Part shown: piece after piece, positions 5,011 to 60,126 of the stretch
How the letters are laid out: every line of letters begins with the position of its first letter
How positions within the stretch are numbered: the stretch's first letter is position 1
NCBI RefSeq assembly: GCF_032164335.1
Contig: NZ_CP134152.1
Span: 3,596,001 to 3,660,000, forward strand
DNA: 64,000 nucleotides
Origin: Winslowiella toletana
GTDB taxonomy: Bacteria > Pseudomonadota > Gammaproteobacteria > Enterobacterales > Enterobacteriaceae
Reading direction: 5' to 3'
The notes under the pieces: generated by a model
The model's input: the letters and a program-made list of their open reading frames with translations, nothing else
Database searches by the model: none
Told to the model about the DNA's origin: nothing
Program-made: the position numbers and the translations under genes

Positions 5011-6264
5011 TCAGGCGTAAACCGGGAAGCGCGCGCAGATTTCCAGTACTTTCTGCTTAACGCGTTCGATATTGGCTTCATCGTTGATATTGTCGAGAAT
5101 ATCAACAATCCAGCCAGCCAGCTCACGCACTTCAGCTTCTTTGAAGCCGCGACGGGTCACGGAAGGTGAACCAATGCGGATACCGGAAGTGACAAACGGG
5201 CTTTTCGGATCGTTAGGCACGCTGTTTTTGTTAACCGTGATATTCGCGCGACCCAGCGCAGCATCCGCTTCTTTACCGGTCAGGTTTTTATCAACCAGGT
5301 CCAGCAGGAACAGATGGTTATGCGTACCGCCGGAAACCACGTTGTAGCCACGCTCCAGGAACACGTCAACCATCGCTTTGGCGTTTTTAGCAACCTGCTG
5401 CTGATAAACCTTAAACTCAGGCTCCATCGCTTCTTTCAGCGCTACCGCTTTACCGGCAATCACGTGCATCAGCGGGCCGCCCTGTCCACCAGGGAACACA
5501 GCAGAGTTCAGTTTCTTGTACAGTTCTTCGTCGCCGCCTTTCGCCAGAATCAGGCCGCCACGCGGGCCTGCCAGCGTTTTGTGGGTGGTGGTGGTAACGA
5601 TATGAGCGTGAGGAATCGGGTTAGGATAGACGCCTGCCGCAATCAGACCCGCAACGTGTGCCATATCCACAAACAGATAGGCACCGATGCTGTCGGCGAT
5701 TTCACGCATTTTTGCCCAGTCGCAGACGCCAGAGTAAGCAGAGAAACCACCGATGATCATTTTCGGTTTATGTTTCTGCGCCTGTGCCGCCAGCTCTTCG
5801 TAATCGATTTGGCCAGTTTCGTCGATGCCGTAAGGCACCACGTTGTACAGTTTACCGGACAGGTTAACCGGGGAACCGTGGGTCAGGTGACCACCGTGCG
5901 CCAGATTCATACCAAGAATGGTGTCGCCTGGCTGCAACAGCGCAGTGTAGACCGCGAAGTTAGCCTGCGAACCTGAGTGCGGCTGCACGTTGGCGTAATC
6001 AGCACCAAACAGCTCTTTTGCACGATCAATCGCCAGTTGCTCGACGATATCAACATACTCGCAGCCGCCGTAGTAACGTTTGCCCGGATACCCTTCGGCG
6101 TATTTGTTAGTCAGCTGTGAACCTTGCGCCTGCATAACACGCGGGCTGGTGTAGTTTTCAGAAGCAATCAGCTCAATGTGCTCTTCCTGACGCACTTTCT
6201 CTTGCTCCATCGCCTGCCACAACTCGGCATCATAATCGGCAATGTTCATATCACGCTTTAACAT
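5011..6264 (-). CDS. glyA: Serine hydroxymethyltransferase
   Basis: A 417-residue PLP enzyme, nearly identical to E. coli GlyA in length and sequence. It converts serine and tetrahydrofolate to glycine and 5,10-methylene-THF, the main source of one-carbon units. The PLP lysine lies in [14 protein letters not shown] at about residue 229. The start at 6264 is chosen over an ATG two codons upstream because AGGAG sits at the right distance and the family begins MLKR(E/D)MNIADYD. The gene is monocistronic with its own terminator. A PurR-like operator lies about 115-130 bases upstream. Confidence 0.98.
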
Positions 6265-41786: not shown

Positions 41787-42150
41787 GGGGCTGATTCTGG
41801 ATTCGACGGGATTTGCGAAGCCCAAGGAGCATGCCGAGGGGCGGTTTGCCTCGTTAAAAGCCGCAAAAAAATAGTCGCAAACGACGAAAACTACGCACTA
41901 GCAGCTTAATAACCTGCTCAGAGCCCTCTCTCCCTAGCCTCCGCTCTTAGGACGGGGATCAAGAGAGGTCAAATCCAAAAGAGATCGCGTGAATATCCTG
42001 CCTGGGGTTGAAGCGTTAAATCTAATCAGGCTAGTTTGTTAGTGGCGTGTCCATCCGCAGCTGACAGGCGAATGTAAAGATTGGACTAAGCATGTAGTGC
42101 CGACGGTGTAGTAATTTCGGACGCGGGTTCAACTCCCGCCAGCTCCACCA
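41787..42150 (+). ncRNA. ssrA: Transfer-messenger RNA
   Basis: A 364-nt tmRNA from GGGGCTGATTCTGGATTCGA to the encoded CCA end. The tag frame starts at the resume codon GCA (41877) and reads ANDENYALAA then TAA TAA, the enterobacterial degradation tag. The tRNA-like 3' end (GGGTTCAACTCCCGCC AGCTCCACCA) is intact. It rescues stalled ribosomes with SmpB. Its 3' end serves as the attachment site of the neighbouring integrase. Confidence 0.98.
42127..42150 (+). other. Presumed attL: 3' end of ssrA
   Basis: The T-loop and acceptor end of tmRNA is the target of P4/CP4-57-type integrases, and such an integrase gene begins 205 bases downstream. The duplicated copy expected at the far border was not found in the window, so the core length is not defined. 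Confidence 0.6.
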
Positions 42151-42354: not shown

Positions 42355-43596
42355 ATGGCAAGACAAACCAAACCTCTATCCGTTAAAGAAATCGAATCTG
42401 CTAAACCCAAGGAAGCGGACTACGTTCTCTATGATGGCGATGGCCTTGAGCTACTGATCAAATCTAGCGGGAGTAAAATCTGGCAGTTTCGCTACATTCG
42501 CCCTGTCACCAAGAAACGTGCGAAGAAGAGCATAGGCCCCTACCCGTCAGTTACGCTTGTCGATGCCAGAAACTATCGCGCAGAGTCTCGTTCTCTTCTG
42601 GCGAAAGAAATCGACCCTCAGGAACATCAACAAGAACAACTTCGCAGTTCGCTGGAAGCTAAAACCAATACTTTCCAGCTCGTGGCTGAACGTTGGTGGA
42701 ATGTGAAGAAAGCCAGCGTGACAGAGGACTATGCCGACGATATCTGGCGCTCTCTTGAGAGAGATGTTTTTCCCGCGATTGGCGACATTAGCGTTACAGA
42801 TATTAAAGCTCACACACTGGTTCAGGCCGTCCAACCGGTTCAGGCCAGAGGAGCACTGGAAACCGTTCGTCGCCTGTGCCAGCGCATTAATGAGGTCATG
42901 ATCTATGCCCAAAACACAGGGCTGATTGATGCTGTTCCCAGCGTTAATATCGGTAAAGCCTTCGAGAAGCCTCAGAAAAAGAACATGCCCAGCATTCGAC
43001 CGGATCAGCTACCTCAACTGATGCAGACAATGCGAACAGCCAGCATCAACCTTTCCACACGCTGCCTGTTCATGTGGCAACTTCTTACAATCACCCGCCC
43101 CGCCGAAGCGGCTGAAGCTCGCTGGGAAGAGGTAGACCTGGAAGCACGAGAATGGAAGATTCCTGCCGCACGCATGAAAATGAACCGCGATCATACTGTT
43201 CCATTGTCAGATGAAGCAATTGCGATATTGGAGATGATGAAGCCGTTGAGTGAAAATCGAGAATTTATCTTTCCCAGCCGTATCAAGCCAAACCAGCCGA
43301 TGAACAGCCAAACAGTTAATGCCGCACTCAAGCGCGCCGGTTTAGGAGGCGTACTCGTATCTCACGGCTTGCGTTCTATCGCAAGTACAGCTCTCAATGA
43401 GCAAGGGTTTCCGCCTGATGTTATTGAGGCCGCACTTGCTCATGTGGACAAAAATGAGGTACGTCGCGCTTACAACCGCAGTGATTACCTTGAGCAACGT
43501 CGTCCTATGATGCAGTGGTGGGCTGATTTTGTTAGTAAGGCCGACAACGGGAGCATTGTTGAAACCGGGAAAACGGGGTTAAAACTTGTGGTCTGA
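42355..43596 (+). CDS. intA: P4/CP4-57-type tyrosine integrase
   Basis: A 413-residue tyrosine recombinase with the DUF4102 arm-binding N-terminus (about 1-85), a core-binding domain (about 105-200) and the catalytic domain. The catalytic set is visible: Arg248 (TITRPAE), His337 and Arg340 (SHGLRS), His363 (LAHVD) and Tyr373 (RRAYNRSDY). It inserts and, with an excisionase, removes the island at ssrA. All active-site residues are present, so it may be functional. No alpA/xis-like excisionase gene is seen next to it. Confidence 0.94.
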   Translation: MARQTKPLSVKEIESAKPKEADYVLYDGDGLELLIKSSGSKIWQFRYIRPVTKKRAKKSIGPYPSVTLVDARNYRAESRSLLAKEIDPQEHQQEQLRSSLEAKTNTFQLVAERWWNVKKASVTEDYADDIWRSLERDVFPAIGDISVTDIKAHTLVQAVQPVQARGALETVRRLCQRINEVMIYAQNTGLIDAVPSVNIGKAFEKPQKKNMPSIRPDQLPQLMQTMRTASINLSTRCLFMWQLLTITRPAEAAEARWEEVDLEAREWKIPAARMKMNRDHTVPLSDEAIAILEMMKPLSENREFIFPSRIKPNQPMNSQTVNAALKRAGLGGVLVSHGLRSIASTALNEQGFPPDVIEAALAHVDKNEVRRAYNRSDYLEQRRPMMQWWADFVSKADNGSIVETGKTGLKLVV

Positions 43597-44724: not shown

Positions 44725-44963
44725 AAGCACAACACCCATAACATAGTCGCTCAGTATTCTAATATTTCCGCGATGTCCGCTCTTCGCTCATAGCAGACCT
44801 CGCGACACTGCAGGTAGTCCGCTGTATGCCAGGAGCGGAACCAAATGTGCCAGAGACTATCTAAAAGTTGATGGTTCTTTTTGTAGGGATACTTACACGT
44901 TTATCACGTGCAGATTCCATTACTTTCTCCTTATCGCAGAACGTTTGTATAGGCTTCTAGCCT
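44725..44963. other. Gap with repeat debris
   Basis: No gene is visible. The stretch holds fragments such as TGCCAGGAGCGGAA (about 44826-44839) that resemble the dispersed AGAAGCGG motif, so it looks like decayed repeat sequence at the 3' end of two converging modules. No clear terminator was found for the large minus-strand gene. Confidence 0.4.
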
Positions 44964-47900
44964 TTATTCAAACCGCTGTTCCCTTTCACTATCTTCCCTT
45001 TGTTCCCGTTCTTTTTGGCGTTCGACCCACTGACTCATTTTTTCACAAACTGTTTTGGCAGCCTCGGCGATATCTGGACGCTCGTGTTTACTCAGCGCAC
45101 CGATGACGCTTAATCTAGCTTGCATTATGTTCGCCAGGCTACCAGTCCAGGAGGATGGAGTGATTCGCTCAGCAAAAGACTCCAGCACAGCTAATGGCTC
45201 AGGAGAGGCCTCTAACAGTTCTATAGCAGCTTCGTGTAGGGTTAGTACATTCTGTTCATCATTCTTTGACCAGAGAGTCACACCAGCCGCAATGGCAGCC
45301 CAAACACTGGGATCATTTCTGGCACGGCACCATTCAATCAAGACGCTAGTACTTACATCAGCAAGAGGATAACGGCGTAAACTGCCACGACGAATAAAGA
45401 ACTGTCTTCCCTGCTGCTGTTCCTCGGTGCATTCAAAAATGCAATTGAGAAATGATTCAGGCATTAACGCAACAGTTGTTGCTATAGTCTTCTCGAATCC
45501 CAAAAAATATCCATAGTGTTCATCAATGACATTGAAAATTGCGTCCAACCACTCAATTTTTTTTGCCTCATTACCATCGAAGCGCAATGCGGCATCGATA
45601 ACTCGCTCCATGTAAAAATCAATTGTCCCTCTTTGGCCTCTGTCGCTGTTTTTAATCCTCTGGATTGCAGCAGCAAGACCAATCAACCGAAAGTCTGCGC
45701 CAAGCGTATTTGCCGATTTGTCTTTACCATGCAGTCTCATGGAGAGCGCATGCAAAATGACATTATCTCCGCTTGCTTTACTCAGGAGTTGCTCAGCAAG
45801 CTCGAGAAGACGAATTCTCGGCAAATTGGCATATTGTTCTCGCCATAGAATAGGCTCATACATGAAAGGGCTAATTTCTGGATCATCCAAATGCTTTATG
45901 CAGCGATCCAAATCAGTTACCGTAAATGTCCTCCAAGGATGCAAGCCAACCAATACCTGTCGAAGTTCAGGATGTTGCGCACATAGGTCGAGAAAATTCT
46001 GAGCTAATGATGGATCGACAGAGTCAACTTCTTCGATGAACCCCCCAATAACTCCAAAGTCTTTGTTAGCATCTGGCTGTTTTTCAATTTGTTCAACAAG
46101 TCGCTGCCAGCCAATACGTAGATCATGTGCCCCTTGAGCAAGTCCTCGACCAAAGGCAGCACGATAAGGCATTCCACCGATGGAGAACAGATCTGTTCCT
46201 AACTCCTCAAGCACATGATTTGATAGGGCAAAGTCCTGTCCCAATTGAAGTGCTTTAGCTTCAAGTCGTTTTCCGGCTGCGGTATATTTATCGGAGTCCT
46301 CATGATCAAAATCCGCATCAAGTGCCCAATAATCATGATTTGTACTCAACACGTATGTCTTTATTGTTGGAATTAACGCAATGGGCTCCAACTCCTTCTC
46401 TAAGGCAGCAAGATTATCCGGCAACGGCTCAACATCATCTCCATCGCCATGCTTGGTATAGTCAAAATAGACCGTTGAACGAACGGCTTTCCAACCTTCC
46501 CCCCAAGGACTTAAAGCATTTAATGTACGGGCAGCATCGACGAGTTTGTCTCGCATTGCTTCTTGAAACCAAATTCCCCTGAATTTGTCAGCTAAGATTG
46601 TTCTTGCAGGCCTTTCAAGCTCAGGATCTCCGGATGCCGCTAATTGGATAATGACGTCAATAAAGGCGCTGCGCCATTCGACAAGTTCATCATAGTTGGG
46701 TTCGTATCCATAGTCTCTTGGTCGAGCTCCAAACTCACTAATCCCAACCCCTGACCACGGTGGGCCATACAGGGCGGTTGACAGCATCTTGAAGCCCAAA
46801 GATCTACGCGTAAGAATACTTGATGCAATGCATTCGTTCATTAAAGCAATACGCTGGCTTAGGGAGGCATGAGTACCAGACAGATACGCCTGGAAAAACC
46901 TTGGGACCATGTTTCGAGCAGAATCCAGGTCATTATTATCGGCTTCGTCCTCTGCCATTTGAATAAGAAGCTTGGCGCATCGCTCAAAAGCGTTCGGTTC
47001 GTATGCCATCAATTGTAAAAGACGCAGAATACTACGTCGCTGCAGATTGTAGCCCAGTTCCATACCTTTAAAATCAGATGATGAGAGTACGACCTCAATT
47101 CTGTTTAGCAATGCTTCAGGTGCAACCGGCCCTATATACCCAAGTATTCGTGACGAAATATCATTTAACTCGGCTATTCTTCCTAGCATCCCTTCAGGCT
47201 GAAGCCAGGCTTCTACAATTTCTTTCGCAACAGGATGGTCATGCAACAACCCTAGGCGATGGGAAAAAGACATTAATAAACGCTCACAATCCGGAGCTTC
47301 AAAAGTCGCCCTAAGTTGATCAACGGGAATACTGTCGAGTGCGGATGCTGCCAATCTATTAGCAATGGCATGAGGTAAGATAGCTCTCCAGTGAGATCTT
47401 TTCTGAACGATATGACGTTCCATCAGCTTCGTAACGGCTTTAAATAACTGGGTTCTGGAATACCCAAAGAGCGCCCCTAATATCTCCAGTTCATCGGTAG
47501 CAGCATCTGGACTAGATACCGAGAATGAATACACCAGTGACAATATTTCAGCTTGCTCCCGTAAATTACCATCAGGGTGATTACGCTGTTCAAACAAGCG
47601 ATTAAACAACTGTGCATCAGAAAGTAGAGCCAAACTCTCGCCTTCCTCCCCTCTCTCAGCTATAGCCAAAGCAACTCTTGCATTCCCATCTGCAAACTCA
47701 GCAATACGACGGGCATTATTCTTACCAATAGAAGGGAAGCGACGGATGAGAAGTTGCTCTGCCACCTCTGGACCATCTGTCTCAATATGGATGACCTCAG
47801 TTGTCTGTGGTTTGTCATCCCTTATGTCGTACTCGATTGTGATGAGGCTTACTTCTTTTCCTGCGGCTGATACCTTGCTGGCAAGCGAAGCATGGAGTTC

Positions 47901-48815
47901 TGATGGACAATTATCAAGGATCATAATTGCTCGTCGGTCCTCAGCAATCAGCTTATCAAGCATTGCTTTAGCCGACGGTACTGGCTCAGAGCCAGTATCA
48001 GCATAAATAGCAACGGTCCGGTCAAGCGCATCTGTTCCAACAGTTTCATCAAAGAGCGCCTGAACGATCCGAGTCTTCCCGACACCAGACAATCCTGTAA
48101 TGCGAACTGCCTTATTCGTCGAACGAATAAGGGCACGCATTGGGCTAATTGCTTCATCAATTTTAAGTTTTTGCCCCTTTCCCGACGGTAAAGTAATGGT
48201 TACGCCTGGGGCTGAGATTAAAGTGTCTGTAACGCCTTGGGGTGGATTGCTCCAGGCTCCGTAGGGTTGCCAACCGGAATACCCTTGTCCAAGCTTCCCT
48301 TTTACCCACAGCATGACTGATGAATGTTGGCGCAGCCATTGAATGAGTTTGGAACGGTCGTAAAAATCGAGATGAAGATTGCTTTTGTTAGGATCATCTT
48401 TTACTGCATCCCTCATCGCTTTGAGACGATCCGCCTTTCCTGAGGGCGAGCAATCATCACCCAGACTGACAATGATGTAGCTGCCTTGTTTTCTGGCTTG
48501 TTCAGATATGATGGGTGAAAGCGTTTGGCCGATGCCCATTTCCTTCTCAATTGTAGCCTTTGGCATTTTATGTTTCTTTGCCTGAAATATCGTATTAGGC
48601 CTTACAAGAAAGCTTGGTTTCAGTTGATCAACTGGAACCTGAACATGGATATCAATCCCTCCGTCAGGTGCTGTAATTGAGCCAGACCAATTTACACATG
48701 CAGGGCTATGACCATGTATTGCCACTTCAGCTTCTGCTAGCCGAGCTATCAGCTCTTCTAGCTGAGTATCGGAGAGCCGAAGTAATTCATCCTTTTCAAT
48801 GTCAAAAATTGCCAC
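44964..48815 (-). CDS. PD-(D/E)xK nuclease-STAND NTPase, Avs-like
   Basis: A 1283-residue protein. The N-terminal domain (about 1-180) has DGGID at 51-55 and FQAKK at 77-81, the Mrr/PD-(D/E)xK nuclease pattern. A STAND/NACHT-like NTPase follows with Walker A GLSGVGKTR (241-249) and Walker B AIMILDNCP (296-304), then a winged-helix-like part. About 700 residues of helical C-terminus could be a sensor. This order is that of antiviral STAND (Avs) proteins, whose C-terminal parts recognise phage proteins and whose N-terminal nucleases then act. It starts at a GTG preceded by AAGG, 41 bases after the reverse transcriptase stop, so the two are probably co-transcribed. Lower GC than the core. The exact family is unresolved. 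Confidence 0.8.
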   Translation of the reverse strand: MAIFDIEKDELLRLSDTQLEELIARLAEAEVAIHGHSPACVNWSGSITAPDGGIDIHVQVPVDQLKPSFLVRPNTIFQAKKHKMPKATIEKEMGIGQTLSPIISEQARKQGSYIIVSLGDDCSPSGKADRLKAMRDAVKDDPNKSNLHLDFYDRSKLIQWLRQHSSVMLWVKGKLGQGYSGWQPYGAWSNPPQGVTDTLISAPGVTITLPSGKGQKLKIDEAISPMRALIRSTNKAVRITGLSGVGKTRIVQALFDETVGTDALDRTVAIYADTGSEPVPSAKAMLDKLIAEDRRAIMILDNCPSELHASLASKVSAAGKEVSLITIEYDIRDDKPQTTEVIHIETDGPEVAEQLLIRRFPSIGKNNARRIAEFADGNARVALAIAERGEEGESLALLSDAQLFNRLFEQRNHPDGNLREQAEILSLVYSFSVSSPDAATDELEILGALFGYSRTQLFKAVTKLMERHIVQKRSHWRAILPHAIANRLAASALDSIPVDQLRATFEAPDCERLLMSFSHRLGLLHDHPVAKEIVEAWLQPEGMLGRIAELNDISSRILGYIGPVAPEALLNRIEVVLSSSDFKGMELGYNLQRRSILRLLQLMAYEPNAFERCAKLLIQMAEDEADNNDLDSARNMVPRFFQAYLSGTHASLSQRIALMNECIASSILTRRSLGFKMLSTALYGPPWSGVGISEFGARPRDYGYEPNYDELVEWRSAFIDVIIQLAASGDPELERPARTILADKFRGIWFQEAMRDKLVDAARTLNALSPWGEGWKAVRSTVYFDYTKHGDGDDVEPLPDNLAALEKELEPIALIPTIKTYVLSTNHDYWALDADFDHEDSDKYTAAGKRLEAKALQLGQDFALSNHVLEELGTDLFSIGGMPYRAAFGRGLAQGAHDLRIGWQRLVEQIEKQPDANKDFGVIGGFIEEVDSVDPSLAQNFLDLCAQHPELRQVLVGLHPWRTFTVTDLDRCIKHLDDPEISPFMYEPILWREQYANLPRIRLLELAEQLLSKASGDNVILHALSMRLHGKDKSANTLGADFRLIGLAAAIQRIKNSDRGQRGTIDFYMERVIDAALRFDGNEAKKIEWLDAIFNVIDEHYGYFLGFEKTIATTVALMPESFLNCIFECTEEQQQGRQFFIRRGSLRRYPLADVSTSVLIEWCRARNDPSVWAAIAAGVTLWSKNDEQNVLTLHEAAIELLEASPEPLAVLESFAERITPSSWTGSLANIMQARLSVIGALSKHERPDIAEAAKTVCEKMSQWVERQKEREQREDSEREQRFE

Positions 48816-48856
48816 GCCTTCACCTTGGTTAAAAATTTTTTTCTCTGGTTCTTACA

Positions 48857-49828
48857 CTATGTATACATATTCGTGCGCCCCGCACTCTTAAGAGCAAGCA
48901 AGCGCTGTTTAAGTTTTTTTGCTTTGCCAGGATGGAATCTGGCCAATAAATGAACCAGTCCCAATGTTTGTGCATAAAGGCCCTTATCGAACTCGATAAT
49001 TTCGCCCCTAAGAATGGCTTGCTCCAAATGATGGACTGCCGATCGTATCTGACTTTGCTTAGCGGAAGAGAGACCAGGTTTTGAATTGACCGAAAGCCTG
49101 GTAACTTCCATCCGTTGCCCAGATGTTCTGATTTCGTGTTTAGCTCGTTTAGGCTGGTAACCGTGCCTGGAAAGCATGCCATAAATCGAGGCTATCACAT
49201 TCGTTTTAGCCGGTTTATCAAGAAAGTTTACTGACGAGACGGCGATATCATCAACGTAGCGGGAATAAATTACTCCTCTTGCCCGAAAACTGGCTTGCAG
49301 TGCCGGTTCATCTTTCCAAAACGCTAGGTTAGCCAGAAATGAACTAGTGATGGCCCCCTGAGGTAGCTCCCCTTGTCGGGTCGTCAGCTTGGTCAAACAT
49401 TCAGCTACTTCATTATCGAAGCCAAAGAAATGTTGCCATATGTTATGCACTATTGTGACTGAAGTTGACGGGAAAAAACGCGTAATATCTTCATTAATAA
49501 CAATCGTAGAACCAGCGTGTAAAGTTGCATTAGTTTTATAATCACAACCTTTCAGACTACCTGTCAAATATGCTGGATAAACAACGTAATCAAGAATATT
49601 GCGCCTGATATTGCGTTGTAATTTTTTTAGAGGTGCATATGCATCCCAAGTCTGACGCGTACTTCCGTCAGGCTTAGTGATAGTGCTGGCGAGTCGGTAC
49701 ATATTGTCCGCACGATTGGCTAGATTAAGTAGTTCGATAGGAGAGATGTTCAGCGCTTTTGATAGCGCTGTCATACTGCTGATGCGTCGTTTGCTATAGA
49801 AGGGTGAGTCAGACAGAGTGTGAATCAT
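48857..49828 (-). CDS. Retron-type reverse transcriptase
   Basis: A 323-residue RT with the retron hallmarks: NAxxH (NATLH, 100-104), EDITRFF (113-119, catalytic Asp114), LPQG (155-158), YVDD (191-194) and EVTRLSVN (241-248, the region-Y VTG motif with R for G). The N-terminus SPFYSKRR...LSKAL is also retron-like. Such RTs copy part of a partner RNA into msDNA and usually guard an effector. The ATG at 49828 overlaps the end of the XRE gene by 20 bases and has GGAG upstream; a longer frame to 49951 lies inside the XRE gene. No frameshift is seen, so it may be active. Confidence 0.9.
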   Translation of the reverse strand: MIHTLSDSPFYSKRRISSMTALSKALNISPIELLNLANRADNMYRLASTITKPDGSTRQTWDAYAPLKKLQRNIRRNILDYVVYPAYLTGSLKGCDYKTNATLHAGSTIVINEDITRFFPSTSVTIVHNIWQHFFGFDNEVAECLTKLTTRQGELPQGAITSSFLANLAFWKDEPALQASFRARGVIYSRYVDDIAVSSVNFLDKPAKTNVIASIYGMLSRHGYQPKRAKHEIRTSGQRMEVTRLSVNSKPGLSSAKQSQIRSAVHHLEQAILRGEIIEFDKGLYAQTLGLVHLLARFHPGKAKKLKQRLLALKSAGRTNMYT

Positions 49829-50099
49829 TAAGCAGCTCCAACGCAGTACGCGCAAGTTCTCCTTGGAGTCCCTTATCAATACCGTTAAGATCACCGGCCT
49901 CTGCTGCAATAAAGAAAATAATGCTGACAGGAATGTTGAGAGCAGAAGCAATGCTGTTAAGGGTTGAAAGCGTCGGATCTCGCTTATTGTTTTCGAGCAT
50001 GGAAAGATAAGAAACAGAACATTCTGCCTTCCGAGCTAAATCCGTCTGTGATATTCCCCTTCTGGTTCGGCATAACTTGATAGCCTGTCCGATATTCAT
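49809..50099 (-). CDS. XRE-family HTH regulator in the retron operon
   Basis: A 96-residue protein with a Cro/CI-type HTH (about 5-60: IKLCRTRRGISQTDLARKAE, SVSYLSMLENNKRDPTLSTL) and a short C-terminal helix region. It overlaps the reverse transcriptase start, so translation is coupled. It may repress the operon; the long palindrome at 50757-50793 is a possible operator. GGAG lies six bases upstream of the ATG. HTH partners are known in some retron types, where they can also be the effector. Confidence 0.88.
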   Translation of the reverse strand: MNIGQAIKLCRTRRGISQTDLARKAECSVSYLSMLENNKRDPTLSTLNSIASALNIPVSIIFFIAAEAGDLNGIDKGLQGELARTALELLNDSHSV

Positions 50100-50150
50100 A
50101 ATTAACTCCGCAAATAAATATTGGGCCTGCTGCGTCTTGGCTCTGTTGCA

Positions 50151-50390
50151 TTATTTCATCCAATCATCAATGTTTGTGATCAGACGAACCACAACGTCAA
50201 TAATACGCAGTGCCCGGAAGACGATATCGTCAAACCGGAACCCGCTTCTTACCGGGCTGTCACGATGTCTGCGTAACTGACGCAATACATCTTCCAGCTC
50301 TGCCAGAGCGCCAGCATCGAGTTGGCTGCAGTGAGCATCGCGCAGCTTTTCAAGCGTTGCGATGGTGTTCTTTAAAGTATCGTGATTCAT
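50151..50390 (-). CDS. Small protein at the head of the retron operon
   Basis: A 79-residue protein starting MNHDTLKNTIATLEKLRD, with a helical N-terminal half (about 1-42) and a hydrophobic/amphipathic C-terminal helix (FDDIVFRALRIIDVVVRLI, about 54-72). I do not recognise the family. AAAGGAG lies seven bases upstream of the ATG but can pair with CTCCTTT 43 bases further upstream, so translation may depend on leader folding. It precedes the XRE gene by 51 bases on the same strand. Confidence 0.6.
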   Translation of the reverse strand: MNHDTLKNTIATLEKLRDAHCSQLDAGALAELEDVLRQLRRHRDSPVRSGFRFDDIVFRALRIIDVVVRLITNIDDWMK

Positions 50391-50730
50391 GTTGCTCTCC
50401 TTTGAATCGGCAAAACGCCGAAGCCCCGTAACAAGGCGATGGCCGAAAGGAGCCAACCCGATGCGCAAGCCCAACACCAGTCTTCGCGACGATGAAGCCC
50501 CGTTAATTCCGATAGTGCAGTTGCCTAGTAGCCGCGTATCGCGACTGGCTACAAATCACTATCATGACGAACGTGCTTCAGACTGACCGATGACGCTAGT
50601 CTGCCCGTCAAATCTCCAACACCGGATGAAGGAGCGGCCTGGTAAACAGGCAATTACGCTAGACCTTCGCTGTTACGATGAGAACAATCATTTTAAAGAA
50701 CACAGCTCAGGCGGAACGCCTGACCTGTGA
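50391..50730 (-). ncRNA. Structured leader, candidate retron ncRNA (msr-msd)
   Basis: No protein is seen on either strand, but the minus strand has a series of hairpins. They are CACAG/CTGTG with CAGGCG/CGCCTG (50701-50729), GCCTG-TTTAC-CAGGC (50637-50651), CAGACT/AGTCTG (50579-50603) and GTAGC/GCTAC with an inner CGCG stem (50528-50552). An end stem CTCCTTT/AAAGGAG (50446-50452 with 50397-50403) covers the ribosome site. CGTAAC...AAGG near 50664-50677 can pair with CCTTGTTACG at 50427-50436 as a possible a1/a2 stem. Just inside it lies TAGC (50658-50661), as at the start of known msr. This is a suggestion from position and folding by eye. Confidence 0.4.
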
Positions 50731-50756
50731 TAAGTAAAGCATTATTTTCGATTTTT

Positions 50757-50793
50757 GGCAATGAAATTTCACTGACAGTGAAATTTCATTGCC
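50757..50793. repeat. Perfect 37-bp palindrome
   Basis: Two 18-base arms (GGCAATGAAATTTCACTG and its exact complement) flank a single central A. It lies between the minus-strand retron operon and the plus-strand KAP gene, so it could be a shared operator or a cruciform. The AT-rich arms and absence of a T tract speak against a terminator. The flanks 50794-51007 contain no gene and presumably the KAP promoter. Confidence 0.85.
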
Positions 50794-51007: not shown

Positions 51008-53344
51008 ATGAGTAAGCTGTTGTTCCGTCTGGCGGCATGGCGTGCTCGCCGTCGCGCGAAGCCTAATGCTGATATGGTAAGGAACGAGCAGCCGGACGGA
51101 GGGATTGGGGCTGAAGCGCCGATTCGGACAGCATCCGAAGATCGCCTTAGAAGGTCCGGATTCGCGGCTCGTATAGCCGACGTGCTTTCGGAGCTTAGTT
51201 TGCGCGAAGGCCGAGTGTTCGCTATTCGTGGGGGATGGGGCTTCGGGAAATCATCAATGAAAAACCTTATCACCGAACGGCTCGATGCCAAGAGCAGTGG
51301 AGCGGACTGGCTCGACTTTAACCCATGGCAATGGGGAGACGGCGATGCAATCTCCCGCGCGCTATTTGGCCAGATAGCAGATCGATTGGGAGGCGAGCAT
51401 TCGAAGGCTGCGCTCGATCGTGCCGAAGCACTGCGACGCTACGGAGCGATCCTTAACGGGGTCAGTAAGCCTCTTAAAGAGGCTGGGAGTTCAGGTCTTC
51501 TAATCTCGACGGTGCTAACAAATGCTTCGGTTATAGCTATCGCGTCGGCTATTGGATATGACCTTCCGACAGTTGCAAAGGTTGCGGCTGTTCTTGCCTT
51601 TCTCTCGGTCGGAGTACCTCTTCTCGGACGCGTACTATCGTATCTCGGGCGTGACCATAGCGGCGAGTCTCTCGACAAGGTACGCAAAGCGCTTGAGACT
51701 CGTCTTCGCGAACTTGACCGGCCGCTGGTTGTCTTCGTCGACGACATTGACCGGCTCGAGCCTGATCAGATCAGGGTGCTGCTTCGGCAGGTAAAGGCGA
51801 ATGCTAATCTACCGAATATTGTTTTTGTGCTCCTGTTCCAGCCCAGTATCGTAGAGCGAGCGCTAGATCCGGTTGCAGACAACGACGGTCGAGCCTTCCT
51901 TGAAAAGATCGTGCAGGCTAACTTTGATTTACCAGCCGTACCGACATCTTTCGTGCATCGTATGTTCGAGGAAGAACTCTCTGAAATAGCGGGCCCATAC
52001 GCGACTGAGGCCAACGGGTTCTCTCAGAGACGCTGGGGTAACGCTTGTATTGGCTGCATCCAGCCCCTCCTTCGCAACATGCGTGATGCACGTCGTCTCA
52101 TTTCTTCCATTGCTGTTCACATGCCACTGCATGTGGTCGGCGACGTGTTCGAGGTGAACATTGTAGACTTCCTGCTTCTGGAAACACTCAGGGTCTTCGA
52201 ACCTGACCTCCACGATGCACTGTTCCGTGAGAGAGGATTGGTTCTCCAGGAAGGACGCTTCTCCCGTGATGGCCGACGGAAGGTGGACCAAGCAGCGGCT
52301 AAGGAGCTGCTTGAGATCGTCTCAGAGGAGCGCCGCAATATCATTTGTGATGCGCTTAAAGACTTATTTCCCCCCCTCGAATGGGCGTATGGGGGGACAA
52401 ACTATGCAGACGGCTTCCATCGCCGGTGGTTGACGGAGAAACGAGTATGCACTTCGCGCTACTTCCCACGTTACTTTGAACTGCAGACGTCGGTTGGAGA
52501 AATATCTGAGCGCCGTTTCGTTGATTTTCTCAATGCAACAGCGACAGAGGACGAGCTCTTTGCTGAAATCGCAGCCATCGAAGCTGACGGGCTGCTGAAT
52601 TCGCTCGTTGCGAGGCTCGATGAATCCGTCGACCGATTACCAACCGAGAATGCTGCTGTTCTGCTCCCAGGAATGTTCAGAATTGCTGAAAAACTCGCAG
52701 GCACGAACAGCGGCTCTTTCGACTCGTTATATGTAGCAGCATGGCGAGCGACAAGTTGGTACTTGAAGCGAATTCCTGAGGATGTTCGAGGCGGTTTAGC
52801 TCTTGAAGCACTCCGTAAAACTGAAGCGCTATCCGTTACCTCCATCCTGATCCATCTCAGCGATCCCACCGATCGGAATGAGGGCGAGAGTGGAGCGTTC
52901 GAGCCAGCGTTAGATCTCCACACCGTAGTGGCAATGAAGACTGAATGGCTACGGTTGATAAGGATCCGCGCAGCAGACGACGCCCTGATTACTGAACCTG
53001 ATCTCATATCACAGCTCTATCGCTGGAAAAACTATACAGATTCAATGGACGAACCCAGAGAGTGGGTAAGGAAAGCAATTCAAACCGACTTGGGCTTCGC
53101 AACCATGGTCACACGCCTGATGAGCCGAGGTTCGAGCCATACCTACGGTGATCGCGTCTCCACGCAGCACAACAGTTTCAACAAAGAGACAATTGACGAC
53201 TTTATTGGCATTGATGTGGCGAAGGCCAAGTGTGATGCAATTAATCCCGCCCAGTTCCCTGAGCACGTAGAGGCCCTGCGAACGCTGCTTAGATATCTCG
53301 AAAAGTGGCTCGGATTGAGGACAAACGACATTTCCGATTTCTAG
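51008..53344 (+). CDS. KAP-family P-loop NTPase with membrane insertion
   Basis: A 778-residue protein. Walker A is GGWGFGKSS (75-83); two TM helices (about 163-183 and 188-213) are inserted before Walker B LVVFVDDIDRLE (240-251), the layout of KAP NTPases (Kidins220/ARMS, PifA). The membrane insertion would place the NTPase on the cytoplasmic face. The family includes the phage-exclusion protein PifA, and members are common in defence islands. The C-terminal 400 residues are helical without known motifs. It is divergent from the retron operon, across the palindrome. Confidence 0.85.
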   Translation: MSKLLFRLAAWRARRRAKPNADMVRNEQPDGGIGAEAPIRTASEDRLRRSGFAARIADVLSELSLREGRVFAIRGGWGFGKSSMKNLITERLDAKSSGADWLDFNPWQWGDGDAISRALFGQIADRLGGEHSKAALDRAEALRRYGAILNGVSKPLKEAGSSGLLISTVLTNASVIAIASAIGYDLPTVAKVAAVLAFLSVGVPLLGRVLSYLGRDHSGESLDKVRKALETRLRELDRPLVVFVDDIDRLEPDQIRVLLRQVKANANLPNIVFVLLFQPSIVERALDPVADNDGRAFLEKIVQANFDLPAVPTSFVHRMFEEELSEIAGPYATEANGFSQRRWGNACIGCIQPLLRNMRDARRLISSIAVHMPLHVVGDVFEVNIVDFLLLETLRVFEPDLHDALFRERGLVLQEGRFSRDGRRKVDQAAAKELLEIVSEERRNIICDALKDLFPPLEWAYGGTNYADGFHRRWLTEKRVCTSRYFPRYFELQTSVGEISERRFVDFLNATATEDELFAEIAAIEADGLLNSLVARLDESVDRLPTENAAVLLPGMFRIAEKLAGTNSGSFDSLYVAAWRATSWYLKRIPEDVRGGLALEALRKTEALSVTSILIHLSDPTDRNEGESGAFEPALDLHTVVAMKTEWLRLIRIRAADDALITEPDLISQLYRWKNYTDSMDEPREWVRKAIQTDLGFATMVTRLMSRGSSHTYGDRVSTQHNSFNKETIDDFIGIDVAKAKCDAINPAQFPEHVEALRTLLRYLEKWLGLRTNDISDF

Positions 53345-53394: not shown

Positions 53395-54357
53395 GTAAGC
53401 ATCCGGTGAACTCGAGTTGCTGTGCAACGCGAGTTGTGATCGGTTTTTGAAGGGGGATTACTGCTGAGGTTTCCGGGCATAAGGCAGCAACTCATCCAGC
53501 CGGTTGTTGGGCCATGGCGGCAGTTTTTCCAGTACATCACGCAGCCATGCCCACGGCTCCAGTCCGTTCAGCCGCGCCGTTTCCAACAGGCTCATCAGTC
53601 CCGCCATCCGCTCTCCCGCACGCTGCGAACCCGCGAACAGCCATTTACGCCGGCCCTGAGCCACCGGCCGCATCACTCTTTCATACCGGTTATTGTCCAC
53701 CGGCACACGCCCATCTTCCAGATACGTCTGCAGCGAAGGCCACCGCTTCAGCGCATACGTCACGGCCTTATGCAGCGCGCCGCCCGGCGCACTGCCTGCC
53801 TCCTGTTCCACAAGCCACGCTCGGAACGCCTCCAGCTGCGGTTTCGCATACCGCTCTCACCATCGTCGCTTCTGTTCCGCCGGCCGCTGCCGGATACTCT
53901 CCTCCAGCCGGTACAGGTATCCGATGCGCGTCAGCGCTTCCTTCACCGGCACCGGCGTGTCGCCTTCCGGCCTGAACAGCGCTTTGTAGCCTCCATAGTC
54001 GTCAACCATCAGAGTGCCCGACCAGCCCGCCAGCATGTCGCGGGCATGCTGCCCGTTGCGCCTGGCGCAGCAGTCGTACACCACCACCTGCGCCAGCAAC
54101 CCGGGGCCGGGCTGGCCTTTTTCGATAAGTGAGGGAGGAAGCGCCGCGCTGTGCACCTTGTCACAGCCCGGGCAGCCTTACTGCGGCCGCACCGTTTTCA
54201 GCACCACGAAGTGCGCCGGCAGCTCACTGCGTACCGGCTTTTGTTTCGGGGTATCGCGCTCCGACAACAGCTCACGGAGCTGGCGGCTGATGTCCGCACG
54301 GTCGGCTGCGGTGTCTTCTTCTGCGAGCTGGCGCTGCTCACCGGAATACTCTGTATC
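53395..54357 (-). mobile_element. Decayed IS66-family element
   Basis: GTAAGCATCCGGTGAA at 53395 looks like an IS66 terminal repeat. Inside lie pieces of one IS66 TnpC transposase on the minus strand. The N-terminal end is missing, replaced at about 54357 by another transposase fragment on the other strand. No accessory tnpA/tnpB genes are left. Confidence 0.8.
53458..54357 (-). pseudogene. IS66 transposase (TnpC) remnant
   Basis: Three pieces in one frame: ADRADISRQLRELLSERD to KTVRPQ (54178-54270 region), GCPGCDKVHSAALPPSLIEKG to LLAQVVV, joined to DMLAGWSGTLMVDDYGGYKAL, and the C-terminal PQLEAFRAWLVEQEAG to the end at 53458. Two in-frame nonsense codons separate them: TAA at 54178-54180 and TGA at 53857-53859. 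A segment of roughly 100 residues or more is missing between LLAQVVV and YDCCA. The protein cannot be made. Confidence 0.85.
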
Positions 54358-54855: not shown

Positions 54856-57800
54856 ATGACGGATTTACCCATGCTCAACCCCTCTATGACTAACCTCACC
54901 CAGCGCCTCCGGCAGGGGCTCACCCCGCCCCTCCCACAGACGCCTGCAACGCTGCCCGATGCCCGCTTACGGCTGAACAGCGCCATGAGCCAGGCGGGAG
55001 AGAGCTGGCGCGACGCCCCCGCCGTCTGCGCGGCGCTCAGGGATATGCTGACCCTGTCGGGTGACTTCCGGCAACAGTTGGAGACCGCCACCGGGTTAGC
55101 ATTTTCCGCCACGCTGCCGGAGCGTCCCCAAAAAATGGAGGACCTGCTGGACCGCGCCGGCTTTATCCACGATGACGCCCTCAACAAACTCAGCGCCGCG
55201 CTCCTCGGCCTGAAGGGCGCTTCACTCTCCGCTCCCGCGCGCTCACCGGCGTTCGCCCCGGCGCCTATTCTCTCCGACGCAGTAAAGGAGGCGGCGCTCG
55301 GTATTCTGCTGGAAAGCGGGCTCAAACTGACCGGGATGTCCCGGGACCATGCCCAGGCGGTGCTGCCGCTGATTAAACTCGTCCGCAACGCGCTGGCCGT
55401 GGTGAGTGAGAAAGAGACCACCCTGGCCGACCGGCTGAAGAGCATCACGTTTAAGCTGAACACCGCACAGGCCAGCCTGAAGCAGGCCAGCCCGGACTCG
55501 GCCGCCTGCCGCTGGGTCAACGCGCTGTGTGACACCGTGGACGTGCTGAGTCAGGGCCTGTCGGTCGGTGCGCTCAAAGACTCGCTGTCAAAACTGCAGA
55601 CCATCCGCGAGCTGGGGCTGTCAAATATCTGCGCGACGCTCACCCCCCTGCTCGAGCAGGCAGAGATGTTTCAGCAGTGGAAAGAGGGGAAACTGACCAA
55701 CGACGCGCTGGCCGTCCGGGTGCTGGAGAGCGTGGCACCGCAGCAGGTGCCCCTGATGCTGAACGTCGCCAGGAAGCTCAACACCGCCGCCGCGGAGGGC
55801 GGCGCGCTGTCGGCATTAGGCCGTGAGCTCCCGCCCATGCCCGGGAAGGCGTCAGCAGGCGCCTCCCTGCGCTGGATGATGGAGGCTGTGCAGTCTCCTG
55901 CCCTGCGTGAAAAGCTGGAGGCAAATGACGGGCAGTGGCTGCGGACCGGCCTGAAGCTGGATGACAACGAGGCCACCTTTGTGCAGGAGGGGCTGCTCAG
56001 GCATGCCCAGGCGCTGGCCGATTTCCCGTTCAAAGGCACGCCGGCGGCCCAGCTCAGCGCGCTGGCCCGCATGCCCGGGCTGGCGGGCCTGTTCGGCATG
56101 ATGAACGTCTCTCTGAATGACACGGTCCCGCTGCTCGGCCCCCTGATGAAGGATGGCCTGCACCTGTCGGACCTCGGCGGGATGGCCAACGCCTCCGGTA
56201 CCTGGGAACAGGCCCGGGAGCTTGCCGGCCTGATGGACGGCAAAAAGGTCGGCTACGCGACCGGTGAGGCGCTGCTCGGCAGCAGCCTCGCGGTGCTGAA
56301 AAAGTGTGGCGGCGCACTGTATGATATCGCCCAGGCGGCCAGCCTGCCCGCCAAAAAAGCCTACGGCTTTTACAAGAGTGAACATGCCCCCGGCAGCACT
56401 ACCAGCGTCAACACCTTTTACCGCAGCCTTATCCACTATATTCAGGACGATTATAAGAGCCACCCCGCGGACTACACCTTCGACACCCTGAGCACCCTCT
56501 CGGCCATCGTCTCCGGGACCCTGAAGTGCGCCAGCGGCGTCAGCGCGCTGATAGGGAAAAATACCGCCGAGCTGCTTGAGGAGTATGCCCGCACCGATCC
56601 GGCCACCTTTTCGCGGCTGGAGCATACCCTTATCCATGCGGTGCTGGATACGCGGCTGGCTGTCGAAATCCGCGACGCCCTGCAGAGCGGAGACTACGTT
56701 CAGGCCAGAAAACTGCTGGAGCCGCTGGGCCGGGCGCTGGAGAATAGCGCCGGCGATCGCCTGTTCCTGCGCAGGATGGCCTCGCTGGTGACCTTCCTCC
56801 CCGCGCTGTGCGATATCCACCAGGCGGTCAGGGACAGCAACACCCCCAAGCGCGAGCTGAGCGGCCGCCTGCAGCAGCGGCAGACCATCATGCTGAAGCA
56901 TCCTGAGTTGCTGAGCACCCTCCCACCGCTGACGATGCTGCAACGGGACCTGGCCCGCCTGCAACAGCAGAGCGGTATCCGCGTGACGCCGTCAGACCAA
57001 TTGCTGGCCGACGGTGAGGTGCTGCGGGCCGCCGTCGCCCGCCTCCCCGCCGGGGAGCAACGCAGTCGTCTGCAAAACGAACTGGAGACGCTGGAGCCGG
57101 GCCTGGCTGCCCTGAAGGCGCAGGGGGAGGCGTCGGGACTGCTGCCGACCCAGACGCGCCTGCATGACGCCGTGCGCCAGACGCTGGCAGAAGAGGGGGT
57201 GCCCGCACAGAACATGGCGCTGGCGCAGGTGGAAAATATGAAAAAAATGCTGAGCCAGGTGCCGGACACGCTCGCCCTGCCGTCGCTCACCTCGTTTTCC
57301 TCTCTGTCGTCCCTCCCTGCCCTGGCCATGGATGTTATCGCGCTGCTGCAGGCCAGCAAAAAACCGGGACTGGAGGCCGCGGTGGCGAAGTTGGAGACGC
57401 TGCTCACCAACGCCGCGTCAGACGCTATTCACGACGGCGTCCACTGGGTGGCCGGCAAAACCGCCCAGCTGTTCACCAAAGAGGTGGAGCTGACGGCGGA
57501 GGAGAAGGCGCAGGGCTGGTTCGTGATGGAAAGAGAGCTGTCGGTGGGGCAGTTGGCGACGGGAGCGGCGGCAGGGGCCGCGTCGGGCGCGCTGCTGTCG
57601 GCGATGTTCCTGCTGCTTTCCAGAGAGGGCGAGCCGGGCATAAAAGGGACCGCGGGTGACCGGCCGGTCACCCTGAACAGGACAGTGACGACCTCTGACG
57701 GGGAGAGCGGCGCGCAGATCGTGCGGCTGTCGCCGTCGCGTGCGGGGGTGTACGGGCCCACGACCCAGCCTGTCGCTCAGGCGGGCGGCGAGTGGAAGCG

Positions 57801-60126
57801 GTGGTTGGCGCTGGCGCTGCCGGTTGTGGCGGGGGCTGCGGCGGGGGCCGGGGTTGCCGCGGCGGTGAACCCGGCGATCCGCGAGAAACGGGGCGAGCAT
57901 GACGTGCCACAGGGGATGAACACGGCGCTGACCGGGCCCGGACGCTTGCACAGGGTGTTGGGTGAGGACGGGGTGACGAAGGGGATTATTCTGGCGGAGG
58001 GCGCGAACCCTGCGCAGGAGGATGCCGGGTTGCAACAAAGCAACAGCCGTGTAAAACGATCGAATTTTGTTACCCATACCATGAAGGTAAGAGAAACCAA
58101 AATTCAAAAGATCGCTGCAGAAGAAAAGTTACACGAACAGGCACGCATTGCCGGGCAGGTGCGCATTGACAACATCAGAAACAGCTGGTCAGAAGCCTAT
58201 CTGGAAGGGAAAGTGACAACCTGGCTGCAGGGGGTGCAGGAGGGGGCCGTGATCCGAATGGGCGCAGAGTTCGCCCCTGAACAGTTTATCCGTAAATTTA
58301 TCCAGGACATTATTGATAAGCACCCTGAGGCGGCGAAGCGCGACGAGCTGACGTCGCCGGACAGTGTCATCATCATGAGAGAGGGCAAAGCACCCGGCAA
58401 GGGAAGCACGCCCGTTACGCTGATCGATCTGGCGATGGGGAAATTTAATTATTTAGCGAAATGGCCGGAGTGGAGAGGTGAAAAACAGGCATTCTACACC
58501 AGCGCTGAGACGGTGGCGTTTCGTACGGCATTACTGAATGATGCCAGCCCCTATATGAGCAGGGGTGGCTATAACCTGCCAGGAGGAGCAGGGAGGGCCC
58601 TACCTGATCGTGTCCAGAGTGCCTTTATCGACCAGCTTGACAGCATCAAATCTGACGGTACAAAAAGAGAGAAGATGGCTAAATTCTACTCGCTCTCTTT
58701 TTATAAAACCGCGAAAGCATTAGCGGTTGATCCCGGCCTGGCGGTGTTCAAACCGCAGCTTGAACAATATCTGAAGGGGGAGATAAAGCCACACCAATTA
58801 ACTTTCCATGATGAGTGCTTAACTGAGGTTGTTGCACTGCGTGCAGGCAACAATGTGCTGGCATGGGACGCCGCTGGCACCATGTTACCTTTTATCGAAA
58901 CAGAGCAGGGAATGGGTAAGAAGAATGTTCAGGACTGGATCCTGAAACACCTATCGGCTAATACACAATATACCTGTAGAGATCCAGATAAAAGAGCCCA
59001 GAATTTTAATTTTCGTAACATTTCAGAAGGTTGGAGTCATCTTGGGCCGCTAGAATATGGCAGTCCATTATCTCTTGAAAAAATAGAAAACATTGGCCAG
59101 GATACCGTAGCAAACCTGCTGAAGCGGGCAGAGCAGGACATCAAGAGTACGATATCCACCAGGAGTGAGTTTTTTCTTGATGGTCTGATTGATGGTCTGT
59201 TTATCGGCGCAGGGATCGTTTTGTCGTCGGTGGTTCCCGGATCTGGCATCGCGTTACTCTTAAAACAGGTCGCTCTGGCCGCAGGGCTGACGTTGAAGAA
59301 AGATCTCGTCAAACTGGCATTCGCTGATAGTAGGGAACAAGCGGAGGGTATTATCTCAACCATACCTGCGAACTTGCTGGCCAGCCTGCTTGTGGACGGC
59401 AGCATCACCCTGGGGCTCCCGCTGGCAAAAAAAATACTGGCGAAGGGAAACATCAAAGTCCCGTGGGCCAAAGAGTTAAATACCGTGAAAGACACCATGG
59501 TAGGTGTTCCCGGATATAACCTGGCGAACGACGTGGGTTCAAATATAGGTAAGTTTATCAACAAGGATAACGCTGGGAGTACGAATACCCGCACTCAACT
59601 ATCCGTTCATATCTGGGGCCAGCCGGATAAAAATGGTCATAAAGGAGATCTCTATTTTTGTGAGTCAACAAAAGGCTATTTTACCTTAAAAAAAGATGGG
59701 GATTATGGCTACTTCCCGACATCAAAAACAGATAATGAATGGTGGCATTTTACAGATCATTCTGCCCTACCCTTCCATATCTGGGGCCAGCCGGATAAAA
59801 ATGGTCATAAAGGAGATCTCTATTTTTGTGATACAATAAAAGGATATTTTACCTTAAAAAAAGATGGGGATTATGGCTACTTCCCGACATCAAAAACAGA
59901 TAATGAATGGTGGCATTTCACAGAACATTCTGGCCCACCCTTCCATACCTGGGGACAGCCGGATAAAAATGGCAATAAAGGAGATCTCTATTATTGCGAG
60001 ACAACAAAAATGTATTTTACCTTAAAAAAAGATGGGGATTATGGCTACTTCCCGACATCAAAAACAGATAATGAATGGTGGAATTTTATAGGTTATGCTA
60101 CTGACAATAATATTAAAAATAGATAA
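54856..60126 (+). CDS. Giant modular protein, toxin/effector-like
   Basis: A 1756-residue protein. Residues 1-890 are helical, with no signal peptide. Two Ala/Gly-rich hydrophobic helices lie at about 896-925 and 983-1006, and a third hydrophobic hairpin at 1438-1478 (GLFIGAGIVLSSVVPGSGIALLL). Base composition changes from very GC-rich to clearly lower GC near codon 1065 (after NSRVKRSN). The C-terminus carries three 56-residue Trp/Tyr-rich repeats (1585-1750). The layout recalls large DUF6543/dermonecrotic-toxin-like proteins of plant-associated bacteria; the family call is tentative and no catalytic site was identified. There is no good ribosome site before ATG 54856; ATG 54874 is an alternative. 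Confidence 0.7.
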   Translation: MTDLPMLNPSMTNLTQRLRQGLTPPLPQTPATLPDARLRLNSAMSQAGESWRDAPAVCAALRDMLTLSGDFRQQLETATGLAFSATLPERPQKMEDLLDRAGFIHDDALNKLSAALLGLKGASLSAPARSPAFAPAPILSDAVKEAALGILLESGLKLTGMSRDHAQAVLPLIKLVRNALAVVSEKETTLADRLKSITFKLNTAQASLKQASPDSAACRWVNALCDTVDVLSQGLSVGALKDSLSKLQTIRELGLSNICATLTPLLEQAEMFQQWKEGKLTNDALAVRVLESVAPQQVPLMLNVARKLNTAAAEGGALSALGRELPPMPGKASAGASLRWMMEAVQSPALREKLEANDGQWLRTGLKLDDNEATFVQEGLLRHAQALADFPFKGTPAAQLSALARMPGLAGLFGMMNVSLNDTVPLLGPLMKDGLHLSDLGGMANASGTWEQARELAGLMDGKKVGYATGEALLGSSLAVLKKCGGALYDIAQAASLPAKKAYGFYKSEHAPGSTTSVNTFYRSLIHYIQDDYKSHPADYTFDTLSTLSAIVSGTLKCASGVSALIGKNTAELLEEYARTDPATFSRLEHTLIHAVLDTRLAVEIRDALQSGDYVQARKLLEPLGRALENSAGDRLFLRRMASLVTFLPALCDIHQAVRDSNTPKRELSGRLQQRQTIMLKHPELLSTLPPLTMLQRDLARLQQQSGIRVTPSDQLLADGEVLRAAVARLPAGEQRSRLQNELETLEPGLAALKAQGEASGLLPTQTRLHDAVRQTLAEEGVPAQNMALAQVENMKKMLSQVPDTLALPSLTSFSSLSSLPALAMDVIALLQASKKPGLEAAVAKLETLLTNAASDAIHDGVHWVAGKTAQLFTKEVELTAEEKAQGWFVMERELSVGQLATGAAAGAASGALLSAMFLLLSREGEPGIKGTAGDRPVTLNRTVTTSDGESGAQIVRLSPSRAGVYGPTTQPVAQAGGEWKRWLALALPVVAGAAAGAGVAAAVNPAIREKRGEHDVPQGMNTALTGPGRLHRVLGEDGVTKGIILAEGANPAQEDAGLQQSNSRVKRSNFVTHTMKVRETKIQKIAAEEKLHEQARIAGQVRIDNIRNSWSEAYLEGKVTTWLQGVQEGAVIRMGAEFAPEQFIRKFIQDIIDKHPEAAKRDELTSPDSVIIMREGKAPGKGSTPVTLIDLAMGKFNYLAKWPEWRGEKQAFYTSAETVAFRTALLNDASPYMSRGGYNLPGGAGRALPDRVQSAFIDQLDSIKSDGTKREKMAKFYSLSFYKTAKALAVDPGLAVFKPQLEQYLKGEIKPHQLTFHDECLTEVVALRAGNNVLAWDAAGTMLPFIETEQGMGKKNVQDWILKHLSANTQYTCRDPDKRAQNFNFRNISEGWSHLGPLEYGSPLSLEKIENIGQDTVANLLKRAEQDIKSTISTRSEFFLDGLIDGLFIGAGIVLSSVVPGSGIALLLKQVALAAGLTLKKDLVKLAFADSREQAEGIISTIPANLLASLLVDGSITLGLPLAKKILAKGNIKVPWAKELNTVKDTMVGVPGYNLANDVGSNIGKFINKDNAGSTNTRTQLSVHIWGQPDKNGHKGDLYFCESTKGYFTLKKDGDYGYFPTSKTDNEWWHFTDHSALPFHIWGQPDKNGHKGDLYFCDTIKGYFTLKKDGDYGYFPTSKTDNEWWHFTEHSGPPFHTWGQPDKNGNKGDLYYCETTKMYFTLKKDGDYGYFPTSKTDNEWWNFIGYATDNNIKNR
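59608..60105 (+). repeat. Three 168-bp tandem repeats in the 3' end of the giant gene
   Basis: Units begin at 59608, 59776 and 59944, each 168 bp (56 codons). Each encodes (H)IWGQPDKNGHKGDLYFC, then KGYFTLKKDGDYGYFPTSK and TDNEWWHF. The DNA is nearly identical between units, so the duplication is recent. The module's conserved Trp, Tyr and GDLY resemble small carbohydrate-binding repeats. Confidence 0.9.

Follow-up and report, generated by a model that had tools for sequence, protein, structure and literature searches.

A type VI retron followed by a PD-λ-4 protein A gene in Winslowiella toletana: a candidate composite defence operon

Introduction

Type VI retrons, reportedly a class of Mestre et al. 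2020, and the Avs (AVAST) proteins, STAND nucleases presumed to act by direct sensing, are among the described systems closest to the locus reported here. This locus lies at 44964-50390 of a 64,000-nucleotide stretch of the Winslowiella toletana genome (assembly GCF_032164335.1, contig NZ_CP134152.1, positions 3,596,001 to 3,660,000 of the forward strand; hereafter the window). In a passage of PMC8541194, which cites that class, a type VI retron is described as a reverse transcriptase (RT) gene with a gene for a DNA-binding protein and a gene for a small auxiliary protein. Therefore, the retron of the window should be complete without the nuclease-STAND gene that follows it. The latter encodes protein A of PD-λ-4, a system that a table of PMC10952713 credits to Vassallo et al. 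2022.

Both halves are thus already known. In the portion of PMC13268207 available, retron and PD-Lambda-4 are tabulated in different strains, and the term PD-lambda-4 was not found in the portion of PMC9519451 available. Among the open-access matches listed, no paper was recognised that treats the pair, and the conserved composite with its noncoding RNA (ncRNA) was not found. The locus is fairly probably a mobile composite defence operon, in which a type VI retron and PD-λ-4 protein A are co-expressed modules, each competent on its own.

Results

Gene organization and protein assignment

Four tightly packed genes follow one another on the minus strand, as had been proposed in an initial annotation of this DNA; its coordinates and gene order were confirmed by the positions of the open reading frames.

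50151-50390, minus strand: SP_VI small protein, 79 amino acids (135.4 bits to PADLOC SP_VI)
49809-50099, minus strand: HTH_VI XRE/helix-turn-helix regulator, 96 amino acids (106.3 bits to PADLOC HTH_VI; Pfam HTH_3)
48857-49828, minus strand: type VI retron RT, 323 amino acids, start ATG 49828 (RT_VI 239.7 bits)
44964-48815, minus strand: PD-λ-4 protein A, 1283 amino acids, with a D-QxK nuclease pattern, a STAND NTPase and a variable C-terminal half (2537.2 bits to PADLOC PD-Lambda-4_A over residues 1-1283)

The XRE and RT genes overlap by 20 bases, and 41 bases separate the end of the RT gene from the GTG start codon of the STAND gene at 48815. The most likely start codon of the RT is ATG 49828, which is preceded by GGAG; a longer frame from a TTG extends back through the XRE gene. 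A terminator scan found no terminator between the RT and STAND genes.

The first three genes were assigned by their PADLOC profiles and stand in the order SP-HTH-RT. RT_VI was the best profile for the RT, followed by RT_V with 211.1 bits. This means that the RT falls in a retron clade, as had been suggested, and is of type VI by profile. The motifs NATLH, LPQG, YVDD and EVTR, read by eye, are indeed present in the translation. Among solved structures, its closest relative is the Ec86 RT, and the ratio of nonsynonymous to synonymous divergence (dN/dS) among six close RTs, including that of the window, is 0.12-0.39. The 79-residue SP_VI protein had no match among solved structures (best E 0.31). 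A close RT was found neither in viral contigs nor, at 1e-30, in phage records.

The 1283-residue protein had been regarded as Avs-like, and its coupling to a retron as a type not known to be described. The protein itself is a described one, protein A of PD-λ-4: among the PADLOC profiles only the PD-Lambda-4_A models match it, and Avs membership was rejected, since no Avs profile matched at E up to 0.1. Pfam gave only sub-threshold matches, and no solved STAND relative was found by sequence at E up to 1. The predicted domains are borne out by invariant residues. In 18 aligned sequences including that of the window, down to approximately 32% identity, Asp51, Gly52, Gly53, Asp55, Gln78 and Lys80 of the nuclease pattern are invariant, and so are the GLSGxGK Walker A motif (residues 241-247), Asp301 and Asn302. 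The protein shares 71.5% identity with an E. coli copy.

Retron and STAND gene together

RT relatives were collected as eight loci from genome contigs (L004-L011), and of 392 genomes covered by a family search, 8 from seven genera proved to contain the RT (the window, L004, L005, L006, L007, L008, L009 and L085). The identity to the window RT is 84-96% over the best segment in these; for L007, where the RT is broken, its first part gives 73%. In all eight genomes the PD-λ-4A gene is directly downstream of the RT gene. The gap is 39-40 bases in five other loci, compared with 41 in the window. This gap of 39-41 bases in six loci, together with the lack of a terminator, suggests that the retron and the STAND gene are co-transcribed. 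Some copies are damaged: both genes are frameshifted in L007, an intact RT stands beside a frameshifted STAND in L085, and in L009/L086 a Mu-like prophage, recognised by eye, splits the RT, the far half of which lies in L086.

On whether the pair is kept in unrelated genomes, a question posed in the initial annotation, the loci point both ways: the eight genomes with a close RT all have it, and none of 11 more distant type VI loci (L035-L040, L042, L043, L066-L068; 12-19 kb each) showed a STAND match at 1e-3. The distant set was built from HTH_VI places with E below 1e-20 (nine including the window), L035 found through SP_VI, and three of five plasmid records; it leaves out L041 (HTH but no RT found), H32 and H34 (plasmid records nearly the same as H31 and H33), and three RTs of the window's genus at 29-34% identity. 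Among the ten distant RTs profiled (L068 not being one of them), RT_VI was best by E-value in nine, with L043 near-tied with RT_V; for the L042 RT, RT_V scores ahead of RT_VI. A role of the STAND as a general type VI effector was rejected, because none of the 11 distant loci has one.

In eight of the 11 distant loci a small protein of 68-85 residues precedes the XRE gene, most of these having a hydrophobic C-terminal stretch by eye; none was found before the XRE gene in L037, L039 and L040. This small protein is a candidate effector. In L036 (3223-7777) the type VI retron adjoins Tn7-like transposition genes, as judged by eye.

Each half alone

PD-λ-4A also occurs without the retron. E. coli L002 carries PD-λ-4 without it, and 141 of 5426 E. 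coli genomes match part of the query; among the 30 matches listed, all lie over the 5' part of the STAND gene, and the RT-ncRNA region had no match in the 5426 genomes. PD-λ-4A without a clear RT match was further found in L058, L060, L062, L063, L064 and L093, on four plasmids (L069-L072), and in eight IMG/VR contigs, one of which has only 830 bases upstream.

Moreover, a scar of the RT is left beside the remaining STAND gene in three loci. In L059 it covers 47 residues (89%, E 2e-19), and in L010 and L011 only the end of the RT is left, before the STAND gene. A fourth candidate, L092, is doubtful: the 26 matching residues lack collinearity with the end of the RT, and a weak form of this match is also seen in L058 and L060 (E 0.047). 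L004 contains, at 5256-5390, a second scar consisting of an RT end and the first bases of another STAND gene, beside the KAP gene. The scars in L004, L011 and L059 share nearly the same starting stretch (AGGGGCGAAAT..ATCGAG), reminiscent of a recombination point. Large genes are found ahead of some scars. In L010 (2887-6201) the RT scar and the STAND gene come after the gene for a 1104-residue NERD-NTPase that matches Avs2 weakly (E 2e-4), and proteins of 1568 residues (L011:4146-8852) and 1541 residues (L009:482-5107), having no Pfam or PADLOC matches, each precede an RT-end scar.

The distribution is ordered on the tree of the STAND N-terminal regions (27 STANDs). All retron-bearing and scarred rows fall in one clade of 15 (100/100), which consists of six rows with the retron, the three scarred rows and six without a clear RT; all 12 rows outside it lack an RT match. 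The retron-bearing rows require four changes on this tree, which omits L003, L007/L065, L085, L098 and L101 (broken or partial), duplicates, and the distant L089-L091. In the C-terminal tree the retron-bearing clade is unresolved, and the full-length tree was made by a quick method only. One joining followed by several losses is the preferred reading, and repeated exchange between islands is a possible alternative.

The claim that the STAND is the effector of the retron in a joined type is unsupported, in view of the 11 distant loci, the STANDs without an RT and the three RT scars.

Variation within the STAND gene

In residues 1-500 the STANDs of the clade are 86-100% identical to that of the window per 100 residues. 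In contrast, residues 501-1283 occur as three alleles: one in the window, L004, L006 and others, one in L008, L002 and L062, and one in L005 and L011. Each allele was found with and without the retron, the retron-less state of the third being seen only as a scarred copy. Among the window, L005 and L008, the STAND dS is 1.5-2.3 in residues 501-1283 as against 0.15-0.29 in residues 1-500 (0.23-0.29 for the window compared with L005 and L008), and the dS of the RTs is about 0.1 or less. These values suggest that the putative C-terminal sensor was swapped by recombination within the gene.

The upstream noncoding RNA

A noncoding block of approximately 350 nt (50391-50742), not mentioned in the initial annotation, lies upstream of the small protein gene. 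The ncRNA part spans 50427-50729, from the a2 arm to the leader hairpin:

50701-50729, minus strand: leader hairpin at the start of the block (12 pairs, 2 changed on both sides)
50662-50677, minus strand: a1 arm, pairing with a2 and followed by UAGC (50661-50658)
50614-50651, minus strand: two msr hairpins (predicted fold; the pairs are invariant, hence allow no covariation test)
50494-50579, minus strand: long msd stem (in five pairs, helices 6-8, both bases differ between copies from Enterobacterales and from Pseudomonas)
50427-50444, minus strand: a2 arm (fold and alignment; the same in L066 but for one inserted base)

The mean column identity is 95% over six loci, in an alignment that adds approximately 60 less conserved upstream bases. 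The block folds 3.35 standard deviations below shuffled sequences (z -3.35), of which 1 in 100 was equally good. A homologue precedes the retron of a Pseudomonas plasmid (L066), the RT of which is 64% identical to that of the window. Over eight sequences 96.9% of the cells are paired, and seven pairs are changed on both sides, compared with 0-2 in slid structures. The a1/a2 helix is conserved rather than covarying: 97.5% of its cells are paired over the eight sequences, 11 of 15 pairs are invariant, and none is changed on both sides. The UAGC after a1, at the position where retrons have the priming G, is whole in six of the eight rows (UGGC in L085, CAGC in L066), and its G-C is invariant. By fold, conservation and covariation, the block folds like a retron msr-msd RNA with a1/a2 arms and a priming G. 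Coding in its 3' part is excluded by single-base insertions and deletions relative to L066. Rfam holds no family for the block, giving one chance-level match only. A crude search for a1/a2 arms in the distant type VI loci missed even the arms of L066 that are in the alignment, and is hence uninformative elsewhere. The proposed template RNA would make this type of retron directly testable.

Palindrome and putative promoter

A perfect palindrome, likewise absent from the initial annotation, is located upstream of the ncRNA:

50765-50785, no strand: palindrome AATTTCACTGACAGTGAAATT (plus strand), likely XRE operator

With up to three mismatches allowed, it occurs once in the window, against 0.06 expected in shuffled sequences, and L066, the Pseudomonas type VI retron, has the same core upstream. 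From this sequence context, it is likely to be the operator of the XRE protein. Beside it, TTGCCA-17-TTTACT was read by eye as a putative promoter. In the window the palindrome reaches 17-bp arms (50754-50790). Its outer positions change together in both arms in L004 and L005, as though a hairpin or cruciform were being maintained.

Loss of protein B

PADLOC pairs A with B for PD-λ-4, using separate models, and PD-Lambda-4_B gives 653.2 bits on the E. coli partner. In the window, only a scar of the B gene, missed in the initial annotation, follows the STAND gene:

44897-44920, minus strand: PD-λ-4 B gene scar, the first 8 codons (MESARDKR) and then unrelated DNA (its place and DNA match other loci)

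The DNA of the scar (ATGGAATCTGCACGTGATAAACGT) agrees with the beginning of the B gene in other loci and then diverges; a protein search taken by itself gives a weak match (10 residues, E 0.55). Protein B is deleted in the window copy, which retains only A of the PD-λ-4 pair. B is also absent behind the STAND gene in L004 and L086. No pattern links this loss to the presence of the retron: B is lacking in the window, L004 and L086, which have the retron, and in L010, L063 and L093, which do not.

Genomic setting

The operon seems to ride on a mobile island at the gene for the transfer-messenger RNA (tmRNA; 41787-42150), adjoined by an integrase gene:

42355-43596, plus strand: integrase of the presumed island (profile matches; relatives in other loci)

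Relatives of this integrase at 92% identity or more occur in L002, L005, L011, L062, L085 and L094. No direct repeat of the tmRNA end of at least 13 bases, marking the far end of the island, was found within the window.

On the other side, a KAP-family NTPase gene (51008-53344, plus strand; PADLOC PifA 264 bits) is divergent from the retron. Such a gene also adjoins the retron in L004, L005 and L009, and in L010 it stands on the other side of the STAND gene. Beyond it are broken transposase-like frames (53458-54156), IS66-like by eye, and a gene (54856-60126, plus strand) for a 1756-residue protein with three HIWGQPDKNGHKGDLYFCE-like C-terminal repeats, for which neither Pfam nor NCBIfam gave a match at E 0.1.

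Discussion

Proposed mechanism

In the composite operon, the retron RNA and the genes would be transcribed together from a promoter beside the palindrome, to which the XRE protein probably binds, regulating its own synthesis. The RT would make multicopy single-stranded DNA (msDNA) from the ncRNA, and the small protein, the XRE protein or both may be the retron's own effector arm. PD-λ-4A would be a separate sensor-effector. Its C-terminal half may recognise a phage product, after which the STAND domain would assemble and the N-terminal nuclease would cut DNA. The two modules would share expression and transfer, and neither would need the other.

Several points weigh against this proposal. The adjacency in all eight genomes exceeds what pure independence demands, and a recent spread of a single island could explain it. 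The STAND, being without B, may not work here. Promoter, operator and msDNA are all predicted, and the putative promoter read by eye is missing from the output of the promoter scan. In the ncRNA, further pair types number 16 as against 16.6 in shuffled alignments, so that one of five measures lends no support; the covariation comes almost wholly from L066, the other seven rows being near-copies, and the same alignment had served to derive the structure.

Alternative explanations

The retron and PD-λ-4A might be mere neighbours, that is, two modules of one island spreading together, with the STAND gene under its own promoter and the gene order without meaning. The closely related integrases in several loci and the NERD-NTPase gene ahead of the L010 scar are in line with this, and between the window and L006 the dS is unequal (0.52 for the RT, 0.23-0.31 for the STAND), which speaks against strict joint descent. 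However, the tight same-strand gap lacks a terminator, and the adjacency survives an RT dS of approximately 0.5 in the same comparison. This explanation is considered rather unlikely.

It also seems unlikely that the locus is decaying, with the STAND of the window as dead cargo and only the retron at work. Such decay would fit the B scar, the separate PADLOC models for A and B, and the absence of B behind the STAND in L004 and L086. On the other hand, the STAND frame and all the invariant residues listed above are intact, residues 501-1283 differ from those of L004, itself without B, by a dS of 0.098 and a dN of 0.033, and the STAND homologues in L063 and L093 have no detectable B.

A true retron-STAND coupling is possible; as one system uniting two sensing principles, in which the retron ribonucleoprotein (RNP) silences the STAND nuclease, or a phage hit on the retron frees it, it is quite improbable. 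The constant adjacency and the uniform gap speak in its favour, and retrons are said in a passage of PMC12548924 to sequester a toxic effector. Against it stand the many STANDs without an RT or beside an RT scar, the 11 distant loci, the three C-terminal alleles among retron-bearing copies, and the intact RT beside a frameshifted STAND in L085. Also quite improbable is a link through shared expression, in which the XRE protein and the retron RNP would control the operon and a phage disturbing the retron would raise PD-λ-4A, a two-stage alarm replacing the lost B; if true, retron sensing would arm a protein-sensing nuclease.

For the composite operon of separate modules, the loci with the retron, with its scar and without it form a natural experiment on whether stacked defence modules cooperate or travel together.

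Comparison with known systems

The locus shares with type VI retrons the RT_VI, HTH_VI and SP_VI proteins in the order SP-HTH-RT and an upstream ncRNA. It differs in the nuclease-STAND gene 41 bases downstream, which is absent in the 11 distant loci. With Avs it has in common a nuclease, a STAND NTPase and a long C-terminal half, whereas it matches no Avs profile and belongs to a separate family in PADLOC. It resembles PD-λ-4 in the full-length protein A; however, B is deleted here, and a retron stands upstream in place of the stand-alone A-B pair.

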